Below are positions 2,408 through 12,388 of a stretch of DNA of 64,000 bases, piece by piece. This DNA comes from an alpha proteobacterium HIMB114. GTDB lineage: Bacteria; Pseudomonadota; Alphaproteobacteria; Pelagibacterales; Pelagibacteraceae. Location: positions 62,001-126,000 of the forward strand of contig ADAC02000001.1 of the NCBI GenBank assembly GCA_000163555.2, written 5' to 3'. The first letter of the stretch is position 1; every line of letters begins with the position of its first letter. The position numbers were made by a program, and so were the translations under genes. The notes below the pieces were generated by a model that did not search any database, was not told where the DNA came from, and saw nothing but the letters and a program-made list of their open reading frames with translations.

Positions 2408-2483
2408 GGTCTCGTAGCTCAGTTGGTAGAGCAGAGCCCTGAAAAGGCTTGTGTCGCTGGTTCAATTCCAGCCGAGACCACCA
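2408..2483 (+). tRNA. tRNA-Phe (GAA), CCA encoded
   Basis: A complete 76-nt cloverleaf. Acceptor strand GGTCTCG pairs with CGAGACC (2473-2479), A73 is at 2480 and CCA at 2481-2483. The D stem is GCTC/GAGC, the anticodon stem GAGCC/GGCTT with loop CTGAAAA giving anticodon GAA, and the T stem GCTGG/CCAGC. The 3' part from the anticodon loop onward, plus 10 bases beyond CCA, is repeated exactly at 3648-3702, which marks this tRNA as a probable integration target. Confidence 0.98.
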
Positions 2484-2493
2484 CTAAAATCAA
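2439..2493 (+). repeat. 55-bp direct repeat, copy 1 (tRNA-Phe 3' end, att-like)
   Basis: Bases 2439-2493 are identical to 3648-3702, offset 1209 bases. The repeat starts in the anticodon loop (CTGAAAA) and runs through CCA and 10 further bases; the copies differ at the next base (G versus A). This is the geometry of tRNA-targeted integration, with the intact gene at one end and the displaced 3' fragment at the other. Confidence 0.9.
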
Positions 2494-2530
2494 GACTTTT
2501 TTAACTTATATTCAAAATTTTTTTCTTGCA

Positions 2531-2547
2531 GACTGCAATCTGACAGC
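2531..2547 (+). repeat. 17-bp direct repeat, copy 1, upstream of lipoprotein
   Basis: GACTGCAATCTGACAGC occurs here, 14 bases before the lipoprotein start codon, and again at 3557-3573, just after that gene. The two copies bracket the gene inside the larger 55-bp tRNA repeat pair. Confidence 0.85.
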
Positions 2548-2561
2548 ATTAAAATATATTT

Positions 2562-3554
2562 ATGAAGATAGTTAATTATTTCTTTTTAGTAATAATCGTT
2601 TTTTTACTGAACGCATGTGACCAGCTTGAAACACAAAGTTTCAAACCAAATCAAGAAATAAATTTTGAAAAATTAGTTAAATTTAACCCTAATAAATATA
2701 AATTTAAAGATTATAAAAAAGTTATTGGTAATAAAGATGTAACATCTTGGGATGGATCTAAAGGTAAAAGCTATAAAAATACTAGAGATTGGAAAAAAAT
2801 TAATGTTACCTATAAAGGTAAGGATGCAGAGCTAATTTTTTTTCAAAACTCAGATAATTCCACAAGTATAAGTTTAAATTTTAAAAAAAATGTTAAATGT
2901 TCAGATCATAAAAACCTGATACCAAATAAGTATATAAAGCCAGAAAATACACAAAACTACATAGCTGATATGTATTTTGTAAAAATGCCAATTTTTCAAT
3001 CCTCATATGATTTCGAAAATAAGAGAATTAATGTTTATTGTTTAGGTGGACTATCTGGCAAAAACGATGACAAGACAGCAGGTACTGGTTTTTTTAGCAT
3101 ATCAATTAAAAACAAAGATATCTCTAAAAAAGTTGTTGCTTTAAAACAAATTGAGTGCACATTTTCACATTATAAATCTTTAAATAAAAGAGAAAATTAT
3201 AATAAAAATTATCGTTTTTTATACAAAGGTACACAATTAAATAAACTTACAAGGTCTAGCCCACAATTTTTTCATATAGATGAGACAGATAAAAAACTAT
3301 ATAATGAGAGATATTCAACCGTTGGCAAAATAGAAACTTTTAATGAAAATATAATTATATCTATTCGGAGATTAAAAAAAAACAAATCCTATAAATCTAC
3401 GCTGTTAAAAAAAATTAAATTGGATAGAAGAACTGGTGAAATAATAATGAATAAAGAGTTATATGATCCCAAAGATAAGTTTTATAAAGATAAAATTTTG
3501 AGGGTAGAGTACATTGGAGAATGTAAAAAAAGAACTTCTGCACAAAAATTTTAA
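2562..3554 (+). CDS. Unknown lipoprotein in tRNA-Phe islet
   Basis: A 330-residue protein with a lipoprotein signal peptide: a short positive start, a hydrophobic stretch (about residues 6-16) and lipobox LLNAC with Cys19 followed by Asp-Gln. The remainder is Lys/Asn-rich, hydrophilic and has no motif I recognise; four further cysteines are spread through it (in VKCSDH, VYCLGG, IECTFS and GECKKR), which could form disulfides if periplasmic. It sits alone between tRNA-Phe and a partial tRNA-Phe copy, flanked by 17-bp repeats, so it looks like the cargo of a small integrated segment. An aspartate after the lipid-bearing Cys would suggest inner-membrane retention under the enterobacterial rule, which may not hold here. 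Function unknown. Confidence 0.75.
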   Translation: MKIVNYFFLVIIVFLLNACDQLETQSFKPNQEINFEKLVKFNPNKYKFKDYKKVIGNKDVTSWDGSKGKSYKNTRDWKKINVTYKGKDAELIFFQNSDNSTSISLNFKKNVKCSDHKNLIPNKYIKPENTQNYIADMYFVKMPIFQSSYDFENKRINVYCLGGLSGKNDDKTAGTGFFSISIKNKDISKKVVALKQIECTFSHYKSLNKRENYNKNYRFLYKGTQLNKLTRSSPQFFHIDETDKKLYNERYSTVGKIETFNENIIISIRRLKKNKSYKSTLLKKIKLDRRTGEIIMNKELYDPKDKFYKDKILRVEYIGECKKRTSAQKF

Positions 3555-3556
3555 GC

Positions 3557-3573
3557 GACTGCAATCTGACAGC
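3557..3573 (+). repeat. 17-bp direct repeat, copy 2, downstream of lipoprotein
   Basis: Exact second copy of the sequence at 2531-2547, starting 2 bases after the lipoprotein stop codon. A loosely similar segment (CTGGCAGCGGACTG) lies at 3637-3650, next to the partial tRNA copy. Confidence 0.85.
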
Positions 3574-3647
3574 GCTCAGCTTCAAAAAATAAACATTTGA
3601 TCTCTTAAAACTATTATAATACAACGCTCATGGGGTCTGGCAGCGGA

Positions 3648-3692
3648 CTGAAAAGGCTTGTGTCGCTGGTTCAATTCCAGCCGAGACCACCA
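3648..3692 (+). pseudogene. Partial tRNA-Phe (3' half) remnant
   Basis: Identical to tRNA-Phe from position 32 of the anticodon loop through the encoded CCA (45 nt). The 5' acceptor strand, D arm and 5' anticodon strand are missing. A short GGTCT at 3635-3639, followed by GGCAGCGGA, may be a decayed relic of the 5' end with the D arm deleted, but this match is too short to be sure. It cannot fold into a functional tRNA. Confidence 0.88.
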
Positions 3693-3702
3693 CTAAAATC
3701 AA
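3648..3702 (+). repeat. 55-bp direct repeat, copy 2 (att-like)
   Basis: Second exact copy of 2439-2493. It ends 10 bases before the start codon of the GDP-mannose dehydratase, so that gene lies outside the repeat-bounded segment. Confidence 0.9.
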
Positions 3703-3712
3703 AACTATTTAA

Positions 3713-4744
3713 ATGAAAAAAAAAATTGCAATTGTAACAGGCTCATCTGGTCAGGATGGTTCATATCTGTGTGAGTTATTAATAAAAAAAAGTTATAAAG
3801 TAATTGCTGCTGATAGACGGTCATCGAGAGATAATAAGTGGAGACATAAATTTTTAAAAATTGATGACAAATTAATTTACGAAGATTTTGATCTTGGTGA
3901 TCTGAATAGTATTGTTGCATTATTTAGAAAATACAAAATTGATGAATTTTATAATCTAGCAGCTCAATCTTTTGTTGCAGCCTCTTTCAAAACACCACTT
4001 TCTACATCAGAAATTACAGGTATAGGTGTATTAAGAATTATTGATTGTATTAAAAATTATCAACCAAAAGTAAAATTTTATCAAGCATCCTCTTCAGAGA
4101 TGTATGGCAATTCAAAATTAAAATTTCAAGATGAATATACAAAATTTAATCCTAGAAGTCCTTATGCTGTAGCAAAATTATTTGGCCATCATATCACCAA
4201 AAATTATCGTGAAGCTTATAATTTATTCCTTTGCAGCGGAATATTATTTAACCATGAATCTCCTTTAAGAGGAGATGAATTTGTTACCAAAAAGATCGTG
4301 AAACATTTAGTTGAGGTTAAAAAAAAAGAAAGAAGTCATTTAGAACTTGGAAATCTATATGCTAAAAGAGATTGGGGGTATGCAAAAGACTATGTCCAAG
4401 CAATGTGGCTTATGTTACAAAAAAAAATTCCAGAAGATTATGTCATTGCAACTAACAAATCACATTCAGTAAAATTCTTTTCTGATTTAGTACTTAAAGC
4501 TTTAAAGTTTAACTATAAATGGGTTGGCAAAGGAATTAATGAAAAGGCAATTGATAAGCTAACAAGAAAACCATTGATTAAGATAAATAAAAAATTTTAT
4601 AGACCTGCTGAGGTGAATTTCCTAAAAGGTTCTTATAAAAAAGCTAAAAATCAATTAAAATGGAGGCCTAAAACCTCTATAAAAGAGTTAGTAAAAATTA
4701 TGGTAGATTTTGAATTGAAAAACTCCTCATACAAAAATAGTTGA
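3713..4744 (+). CDS. gmd: GDP-mannose 4,6-dehydratase
   Basis: An extended short-chain dehydrogenase that converts GDP-D-mannose to GDP-4-keto-6-deoxy-D-mannose, a precursor of GDP-fucose, rhamnose or perosamine for surface polysaccharide. Visible motifs in the 343 residues are TGSSGQDGSYL (NADP binding, about 9-19), FYNLAAQSFV, the catalytic SSSEMYG and Tyr-x3-Lys in PRSPYAVAK, then GILFNHESPLRG and KRDWGYAKDYV. It has no partner sugar genes beside it and lies between the partial tRNA-Phe and tRNA-His, so it is probably an accessory gene feeding glycan synthesis encoded elsewhere. The ATG at 3713 fits the family N-terminus. Confidence 0.93.
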   Translation: MKKKIAIVTGSSGQDGSYLCELLIKKSYKVIAADRRSSRDNKWRHKFLKIDDKLIYEDFDLGDLNSIVALFRKYKIDEFYNLAAQSFVAASFKTPLSTSEITGIGVLRIIDCIKNYQPKVKFYQASSSEMYGNSKLKFQDEYTKFNPRSPYAVAKLFGHHITKNYREAYNLFLCSGILFNHESPLRGDEFVTKKIVKHLVEVKKKERSHLELGNLYAKRDWGYAKDYVQAMWLMLQKKIPEDYVIATNKSHSVKFFSDLVLKALKFNYKWVGKGINEKAIDKLTRKPLIKINKKFYRPAEVNFLKGSYKKAKNQLKWRPKTSIKELVKIMVDFELKNSSYKNS

Positions 4745-4814
4745 ATATTTATTTAAAATAACTATTAACGGCTTCATGAAACTTGTTTTAAAAAACATTT
4801 ATCATCTTACACAT

Positions 4815-4832
4815 GCTAAGCAAAAGCTTGGC
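4815..4832. other. Small hairpin in the gmd to tRNA-His gap
   Basis: GCTAAGC, loop AAAA, GCTTGGC forms a 7-bp stem with one G-T pair. There is no T-run on either side, so a terminator is unlikely. The rest of the 137-base gap (4745-4881) is AT-rich with no other recognisable element. Confidence 0.3.
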
Positions 4833-4881
4833 AATTAATTATATATTTAACAAAAAAAAAATAATATAAACTTTAATAAAT

Positions 4882-4958
4882 GCAGCTGTAGCTCAGTTAG
4901 TTAGAGCGCCTGTCTGTGGAACAGGAGGTCGTTGGTGCAACTCCAACCAGCTGTACCA
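4882..4958 (+). tRNA. tRNA-His (GTG), non-canonical, CCA encoded
   Basis: A 77-nt cloverleaf with anticodon loop CTGTGGA (GTG) on stem CCTGT/ACAGG. The acceptor strands are GCAGCTG and CAGCTGT, so pair 1-72 is G:U. Position 73 is A and the base before position 1 is T, so the usual G-1:C73 identity pair is absent from the gene. The T loop is TGCAACT on stem GTTGG/CCAAC, putting G rather than U at position 55. hisS begins 5 bases downstream. Confidence 0.96.
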
Positions 4959-11023: not shown

Positions 11024-12388
11024 ATGTCGGTATTTAGTTCAATAAAAAAAGCCTTCAAATCTAGCGAGTCTGCAAATTTTCCTAATGATTTAGAATCTTT
11101 ATGGATGCCTTTTTCTGCAAATAAACACTTTAAAAAAAAACCTCGATTAATTTCAAAAGCAAAAGGCATGTATTATTACACACCTTCCGGAGAAAAAATT
11201 TTGGATGGTGTAGCTGGGTTATGGTGTTGTAATGCCGGTCATAATCGACAGCCAATAGTTGAGGCAATTAAAAACCAAGCGAGCGAACTAGATTTTGCAC
11301 CTGCTTTCAACATGGGGCACCCAAAATCATTTGAATTGAGTTCTAAATTATCTCAAATGGCTCCAGAGGGTTTCAATCATGTTTTTTTTGGAAACTCTGG
11401 ATCAGAGGCAGTTGAAAGTGCTTTAAAAATTGCTCTCTCTTATTGGAGAGAAAAGGGCAAAGAAAAAAAAAGAATACTTATTGGTAGAAACAGAGGGTAT
11501 CACGGAACTAACTTTGGTGGAGTTTCAGTTGGTGGTATAGAAAAAAATAGAAGTCAGTTTAATAAATTTCTACCAGAAGTTTATCATTTAAAAGATACAC
11601 ATAATTTAGAAAAAAATGCTTTCTCTAAAGGTCAACCAAGCTGGGGTGAAGAGCTTACAAATGAGTTAGAAAAAATGATCCAAGACCACGGCTCAGATAA
11701 TATAGCAGCTGTCATTGTAGAACCAGTCGCTGGTTCAACTGGTGTATTAATTCCACCTAAAAATTATTTAGATAAATTAAAAAAAATATGTGATGCAAAT
11801 GACATTCTTTTAATTTTTGATGAAGTGATTACCGGCTTTGGAAGGCTGGGCACGGCTTTCGCAAGTCAATATTTTAATATTACACCTGACCTAATATGTT
11901 TGGCAAAAGGCATAAATAGTGGGACGGTACCAATGGGCGCAGTCTTGGTGCAAGATAAAATTTTTGAAGCATTCATGAGTAAAGAAGAAAAGACAATAGA
12001 TCTATTTCATGGATATACTTATTCAGCTCATCCACTAGCCTGCGCAGCATCTTTAGCAGCTTTAAAACTTTATGAAGATGAAAAACTCTTTGAAAGAGCA
12101 AATGAATTATCTAGATATTGGGAAGAAGCGGTTCATTCTTTAAAAGGGGTAAGAAATATAATTGATATTAGAAATCTTGGACTAATTGGTGCTGTAGAAC
12201 TTGAGCCTATGGATGGAAAGCCTACAAGAAGAGCTTACAATGTTTTGTGTGAAGCTTTTGAGAATCAAAAAACATTACTAAGAGTAACTGGTGATATTAT
12301 AGCTTTATCACCGCCATTAATAATTGAAAAAAATCAAATTGATCAATTAATAGAAAATTTAAAAATCACTCTTAAGAAAACTGAATAA
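11024..12388 (+). CDS. Class III omega-amino acid--pyruvate aminotransferase
   Basis: A 454-residue PLP enzyme. The N-terminal WMPFSANKHFKKKPRLI is typical of beta-alanine (omega-amino acid):pyruvate transaminases. Also visible are GVAGLWCCNAGHNR, FFGNSGSEAVESALK (PLP phosphate binding), the PLP-contacting Asp in ILLIFDEVITGFGRLG and the Schiff-base Lys in ICLAKGINSG (about residue 300). It would move amino groups from omega-amino acids such as beta-alanine to pyruvate. It is divergent from groES and followed closely by a HAD gene. The exact amine donor cannot be told from sequence. Confidence 0.88.
   Translation: MSVFSSIKKAFKSSESANFPNDLESLWMPFSANKHFKKKPRLISKAKGMYYYTPSGEKILDGVAGLWCCNAGHNRQPIVEAIKNQASELDFAPAFNMGHPKSFELSSKLSQMAPEGFNHVFFGNSGSEAVESALKIALSYWREKGKEKKRILIGRNRGYHGTNFGGVSVGGIEKNRSQFNKFLPEVYHLKDTHNLEKNAFSKGQPSWGEELTNELEKMIQDHGSDNIAAVIVEPVAGSTGVLIPPKNYLDKLKKICDANDILLIFDEVITGFGRLGTAFASQYFNITPDLICLAKGINSGTVPMGAVLVQDKIFEAFMSKEEKTIDLFHGYTYSAHPLACAASLAALKLYEDEKLFERANELSRYWEEAVHSLKGVRNIIDIRNLGLIGAVELEPMDGKPTRRAYNVLCEAFENQKTLLRVTGDIIALSPPLIIEKNQIDQLIENLKITLKKTE

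Follow-up and report, generated by a model that had tools for sequence, protein, structure and literature searches.

An islet of some 1.2 kb at the tRNA-Phe gene of the alphaproteobacterium HIMB114 is probably an integrated element that entered a tRNA-Phe cargo hotspot through tyrosine-recombinase recombination in the anticodon loop; as the element has no integrase, it is regarded as a derivative resembling the cis-mobilizable elements (CIMEs). The islet lies near the start of the window, i.e., the whole stretch of 64,000 nucleotides that was analysed (contig ADAC02000001.1, positions 62,001 to 126,000), within a genome consisting of one contig of 1,237,371 bp that is 99.96% complete. Coordinates below are those of the window unless another locus is named, and all window features so described lie on the forward strand.

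SAR11 genomes rank among the smallest of free-living cells and contain few recognised mobile elements, and gene gain in the group is consequently an open question. The tRNA-Phe locus offers a testable entry point, as a single tRNA gene occurs in empty, single-cargo, and multi-cargo states across relatives, while the defined ends of the islet provide a starting point for seeking a helper integrase. If cassettes lacking an integrase do move in trans, gene exchange in SAR11 would be underestimated by any count of mobile elements that relies on integrase genes.

Anatomy of the islet

The left end of the islet coincides with an intact tRNA-Phe(GAA) gene (2408-2483; ARAGORN; Rfam, 72.3 bits), whose 3' half the left end of the element would have either brought in or regenerated. 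A 55-bp sequence comprising positions 32-76 of the tRNA plus 10 bases beyond it recurs with 0 mismatches, the left copy (2439-2493) serving as the putative attL core and the right copy (3648-3702), a displaced tRNA-Phe 3' half, as the putative attR core. The repeat starts in the anticodon loop, at its first base (tRNA position 32), and extends to the 3' end of the tRNA; this position is a classic crossover point of tyrosine integrases and one of their known sublocations within tRNA genes. The anticodon-loop sequence CTGAAAA (2439-2445) is the presumed 7-bp crossover segment. Among the 32 tRNA genes of the genome, tRNA-Phe alone is accompanied by a copy of its own 3' half (20-kb stretches searched), and a chance origin of the repeat is thereby excluded. 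Past the 55-bp repeat, about 11 further bases are still alike in alignment before the similarity fades.

A pair of perfect 17-bp direct repeats (GACTGCAATCTGACAGC), overlooked in the earlier note on this DNA, was found just inside both ends of the islet, the left copy (2531-2547) being separated from the left anticodon-loop core by 85 bp and the right copy (3557-3573) from the right one by 74 bp. A shared word of at least 16 bases between the islet ends arose in none of 5000 Markov shuffles. With 1 mismatch allowed, the repeat occurs at two places in the genome, both in the islet, and matches nothing in 99 relatives; it likewise has no match in viral contigs, and a comparison with 84,980 species returned nine single matches, all in unrelated bacteria. 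The right-hand repeat is separated from the core by the right arm of the element (3574-3647), which is not tRNA-derived. When the islet arm sequence was used as a probe against 397 genomes, only short, weak matches resembling AT-rich chance similarity were obtained, with no convincing relative among them, and no second copy of the arms was seen in the genome or its relatives. Arm-type binding sites of tyrosine integrases are direct repeats inside both ends of an element, as in Tn916. By analogy, the 17-bp repeats are candidate arm-type sites, presumably bound by the integrase.

The only substantial open reading frame between the 55-bp copies (2562-3554) encodes a 330-aa predicted lipoprotein with an N-terminal hydrophobic stretch and the lipobox LLNAC. 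The earlier note had described an intact tRNA-Phe gene with an exact 55-bp copy of its 3' end, enclosing a single unknown lipoprotein and no integrase; the first point held exactly under ARAGORN annotation and repeat comparison, and the second was confirmed by the presence of one substantial reading frame and the lack of any match to a recombinase family in the islet, in which transfer genes were not found either. The lipoprotein exceeded the cut-off of no Pfam or NCBIfam family, and its AlphaFold model, built without an alignment, is uninformative, with a mean pLDDT of 38. Its gene has a G+C content of 24.5% versus 28-30% for its neighbours, with similar third-position G+C. A search of 397 Pelagibacterales genomes identified one distant homologue (32% over 304 aa, in G014), around which no tRNA gene occurs within the surrounding 19 kb; phages and viral contigs yielded no homologue, and 84,980 species yielded no close one. 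The cargo thus appears nearly unique within the order, judging by these searches.

From the anatomy of the islet, we infer a recombinase of the tyrosine type. Such an enzyme would have admitted the element to the tRNA-Phe gene at the anticodon loop, giving a crossover-to-crossover length of approximately 1.21 kb; the left junction would have regenerated an intact tRNA, the right junction would have kept the displaced 3' half, and the integrase would have bound the 17-bp repeats just inside the ends. The recombinase itself may have been lost after integration or may have been supplied in trans.

Empty sites and a second inserted gene

Comparison with relatives established the extent of the insertion. 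The gene order hisD - infA - maf - tRNA-Phe - tRNA-His - hisS - hisZ - hisG is conserved within the genus, and mostly so in several other genera of the family (gene names reflect a reading of the translations, with only maf confirmed by Pfam). The tRNA-Phe and tRNA-His genes are 153-154 bp apart in G001, G005, and G006 versus 2,398 bp in HIMB114, and these three relatives, whose hisD products are 78-98% identical, contain no second tRNA-Phe 3' end; in G004, the two tRNA genes are separated by 388 bp without any gene. Alignment with the empty-site relatives further showed that the ancestral flank resumes at 4741-4881 (with a promoter-like TTGAAT and a histidine-bearing leader reading frame), immediately before tRNA-His (4882-4958; ARAGORN), which, followed by hisS-hisZ-hisG in the conserved gene order, forms the right-hand neighbour of the hotspot. 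When tRNA-Phe (2408-2483) is joined to 4741-4881, the empty site of the relatives is reproduced minus 8 bases at the tRNA end, and these 8 bases vary among the empty-site relatives as well. The whole interval of approximately 2484-4740 (the islet together with a dehydratase gene) is therefore inserted, and, given the empty sites in three relatives of the same genus, the insertion is lineage-specific.

The empty sites also bear on the view that the repeat is an old, fixed duplication common to the lineage and never exchanged, a view that the earlier note had proposed would prevail if every relative carried the same segment. An empty site with a single tRNA-Phe 3' end in G001, G005, and G006, the finding that the note had proposed would favour integration, means that the segment is not universal; the fixed-duplication account, in favour of which nothing was found, is rejected on this ground and retains next to no probability.

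The leader region merits separate mention. A 20-codon histidine-bearing reading frame (MKLVLKNIYHLTHAKQKLGN; 4776-4838) ends 43 bp before tRNA-His; relatives have versions richer in histidine (e.g., MKNIVLNHTHHHTHAKHGLGN), followed by a small hairpin-like element (GCTAAGC..GCTTGGC). Judged by sequence, the arrangement resembles a histidine attenuator serving the tRNA-His-hisS-hisZ-hisG operon; the leader region returned no match in Rfam.

The dehydratase gene (3713-4744), whose foreign status had escaped the earlier note, encodes a 343-aa GDP-mannose 4,6-dehydratase homologue (Pfam match, 7e-117; below the TIGR01472 cut-off). It is absent from this position in G001, G004, G005, and G006; its best relatives in the family, 55-60% identical, reside in other genera. 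Nothing closer than a 31% match is present in G006, and G001, G002, G005, and G007 lack any match. The coding region of the dehydratase opens about 20 bases past the displaced tRNA copy and extends to the promoter-like TTGAAT of the histidine leader region, and comparison with relatives places its right boundary at approximately 4740. The gene is thus also an insertion, bringing the whole to about 2.25 kb and ending near 4740. No att remnant was seen to the right of the dehydratase, from which it follows that insertions here may also occur, or decay, without a visible att site. The islet stands beside this insertion, and of the two the dehydratase is probably the earlier; as similar bases occur past the tRNA at both sides, the dehydratase could have arrived on an earlier element of the same family, with the regenerated tRNA then receiving a second integration. 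Lying so close to the displaced copy, the dehydratase may be cargo transcribed from the tRNA promoter. Two methyltransferase-like genes of other genera, at loci L063 (G035) and L065 (G014), start at most about 12 bases from the tRNA-Phe 3' end and may likewise use that promoter.

Occupied sites in the family and candidate recombinases

Elsewhere in the family, the interval that follows tRNA-Phe differs greatly from genus to genus. One methyltransferase-like gene occupies the site in G014 and G035, inserted without any repeat; other genes are present in G099, G016, G058, G015, G026, and G020 (radical SAM, glycosyltransferase, phytanoyl-CoA dioxygenase-like, TPR, and unknown, as assigned from translations alone), and in several genera a cold-shock gene lies between tRNA-Phe and tRNA-His. 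Two genomes of genus g7, G013 and G049, possess an intact tRNA-Phe gene and, 1.6-1.7 kb downstream, a second 3' half preceded by a common right arm (205 bp aligned, 88% identity). Upstream of this arm, G013 carries a phytanoyl-CoA dioxygenase-like gene and G049 a 182-aa reading frame with smaller ones; on the right-hand side of the arm, both genomes have the same two genes. The word CACACTCAG occurs in both arms of G049, with a similar word recognisable by eye in other g7 arms, and constitutes a weaker analogue of the 17-bp pair of the islet. A left arm in common with G013 is found in G026, which carries other genes; two contigs of G125, a genome binned in genus g3, bear related arms, which on one contig are accompanied by a tRNA-Phe 3' half; and a second contig of G013 (L169; G013:C7, about 11975-12240) bears a further right arm plus a tRNA-Phe 3' half, with no tRNA gene nearby. 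The L169 copy is located between a gene for a MORN-repeat-like protein, which has the common SAR11 signal peptide, and a cold-shock gene.

On these comparisons, the tRNA-Phe 3' end has served repeatedly as an insertion point for small cargo in Pelagibacteraceae. The earlier note had read the islet as the footprint of site-specific integration by an element with its recombinase missing or acting in trans, or of a past excision, and the core of this reading gains support from the crossover position, the arm-like repeats, the three empty sites, and the different cargo beside tRNA-Phe 3' copies in another genus, g7. Its suggestion of an active exchange site stands in part, namely as a hotspot over evolutionary time.

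Three further observations concern these loci. A 158-bp right-arm probe from G013 matched more than 100 genomes, mainly because a common SAR11 signal peptide is encoded by the first 25 bases of the probe, and not through the arm; these genomes were accordingly rejected as bearing relatives of the arm. The 25-nt word in question (AACCCAGAACCAAGATCCCTAAAAG; L059:3738-3762), whose complement encodes the signal-peptide start MKKLLGILVLG, is almost unchanged in more than 100 Pelagibacteraceae genomes, and such cross-genus nucleotide conservation may reflect recombination that shuffles genes for secreted proteins. At L061:1195-1271, ARAGORN called a tRNA-Phe gene whose 5' half is an element arm, a displaced 3' half having been mistaken for a gene. 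In G031 (1,308,759 bp; locus L096), the tRNA-Phe gene at the conserved place (GGCCCTGTAGCTCAGTTGGTAGAGCATCGGATTGAAAATCC...) is quite unlike the others of its genus and, by its sequence, looks like a gene replaced by a foreign allele.

The same comparisons weigh against an illegitimate or homologous duplication, in which incoming DNA with a tRNA-Phe 3' end would have recombined without any site-specific recombinase. Counting in its favour, and against integration, the exact repeat overshoots the tRNA by 10 bases, a length that the tRNA does not require, with some similarity beyond, and both the HIMB114 dehydratase and the methyltransferase-like gene of G014 and G035 were inserted without a repeat. 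Nevertheless, the anticodon loop marks the exact start of the copy, the cargo lies between arm-like repeats, and the g7 architecture of tRNA 3' halves with related arms recurs at more than one place, leaving such a duplication very unlikely.

Within the preferred reading of an integrated element, one version holds that the islet is a currently mobile, non-autonomous single-gene cassette served in trans by a recombinase from phages or other elements. Both ends are complete, the 55-bp and 17-bp pairs are undecayed, and arms are shared among different cargo, as seen for the right arm with its truncated tRNA copy in G013 and G049 and for the left arm in G013 and G026. Present mobility is nonetheless judged unlikely, as the arms are single-copy in the sequences compared and no integrase, attP, or helper with tRNA-Phe specificity was found in the genome itself, 50 relatives, phage records, or viral contigs. 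The broader proposal that the tRNA-Phe 3' end acts as a SAR11 docking port for single-gene cassettes with complete arms, swapped by integrases acting in trans and thereby giving a tRNA gene an integron-like function, is considered decidedly improbable.

Candidate recombinases were sought in the same collections. The genome has one PF00589 (Phage_integrase) gene, at 471,353, which encodes an XerCD-like protein of 317-324 aa and lies 2.8 kb from tRNA-Lys. In G006, too, a similar gene stands beside tRNA-Lys, and the family as a whole has proteins of 306-326 aa, for which reasons this gene looks resident rather than mobile; being XerCD-like and sited by tRNA-Lys, with no link to tRNA-Phe, it was rejected as the mover of the islet. 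Larger, phage-type integrases of 424-473 aa are present in some relatives beside tRNA-Arg (G006), tRNA-Lys (G045), and tRNA-Cys (G067), and larger elements therefore do enter tRNA genes in the family. Integrase genes were listed for 50 genomes, and none was found there beside a tRNA-Phe gene; as many of these genomes are incomplete, this does not prove that a tRNA-Phe integrase is absent. A phage source of the islet was rejected after exact and degenerate patterns of the tRNA-Phe 3' half, like the cargo protein, gave no match in viral contigs; in annotated phages, the patterns produced weak matches only, some of them annotated as tRNA-Met or tRNA-Arg, and the islet itself had no viral match. 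As a separate observation, locus L174 of G006, the closest complete relative, is likely a prophage, as tRNA-Arg(acg) is adjoined there by a gene for a phage-type integrase of 450 aa and then by phage-like genes.

These surveys are pertinent to a second version of the integrated-element reading, namely that a larger prophage or genomic island was reduced to the present stump when an internal deletion removed its integrase and core genes and spared one cargo gene. The phage-type integrases beside tRNA genes in related genomes agree with such an origin, as does a prophage locus reported for HIMB114 (PMC3861242). Conversely, the islet retains no phage gene or fragment and no viral homologue of its cargo, and its one gene is complete and framed by two intact arms. 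The stump origin is accordingly a substantial possibility that falls slightly short of an even chance.

Relation to described elements

The tRNA-Phe site of SAR11 was not described in the literature consulted, an incomplete search, whereas tRNA genes flanking the SAR11 hypervariable region HVR4 were noted earlier (PMC2217521). CIMEs have lost their integration and transfer genes while retaining attL and attR (PMC5704250). They arise from an ICE or IME through decay, and become mobilizable once an element with a matching integrase has accreted. The islet resembles them in having attL/attR-like repeats in a tRNA 3' end, neither integration nor transfer genes, and a tandem position with another insertion. 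It differs in being very small (1.2 kb, one gene) and in bearing no trace of a conjugative ancestor, no ICE or IME parent having been found; the likeness is one of sequence features.

Mobile elements of marine bacteria provide further parallels. An HTVC019P-like pelagiphage genome contains a 46-bp match to tRNA-Leu (PMC3861242), and SAR11 prophages and pelagiphages, which have the same group of hosts, share with the islet an att core that is a tRNA 3' segment of comparable length; the islet, however, has no phage gene, uses tRNA-Phe, and matches no phage attP in the collections searched. The tycheposons of Prochlorococcus are tRNA-bordered cargo elements of 4-200 kb with a tyrosine recombinase (PMC10872708). 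Compared by description only, the islet is likewise a tRNA-bordered cargo element in a small marine genome, but it has no recombinase and, at 1.2 kb (2.25 kb with the dehydratase), lies below their size range.

The closest described case is that of the additive islands of 'Ca. Methylopumilus', where the flexible genomic island fGI-2, ranging from 330 bp to 42 kb, is marked by repeated copies of the final 20 bp of tRNA-Lys (PMC10872708). There, too, in a streamlined pelagic bacterium, tRNA 3'-end repeats mark small, strain-variable cargo, mostly of unknown function; the islet of HIMB114 is distinguished by its use of tRNA-Phe in place of tRNA-Lys, by a 55-bp repeat beginning in the anticodon loop in place of one of 20 bp, and by its arm-like direct repeats.
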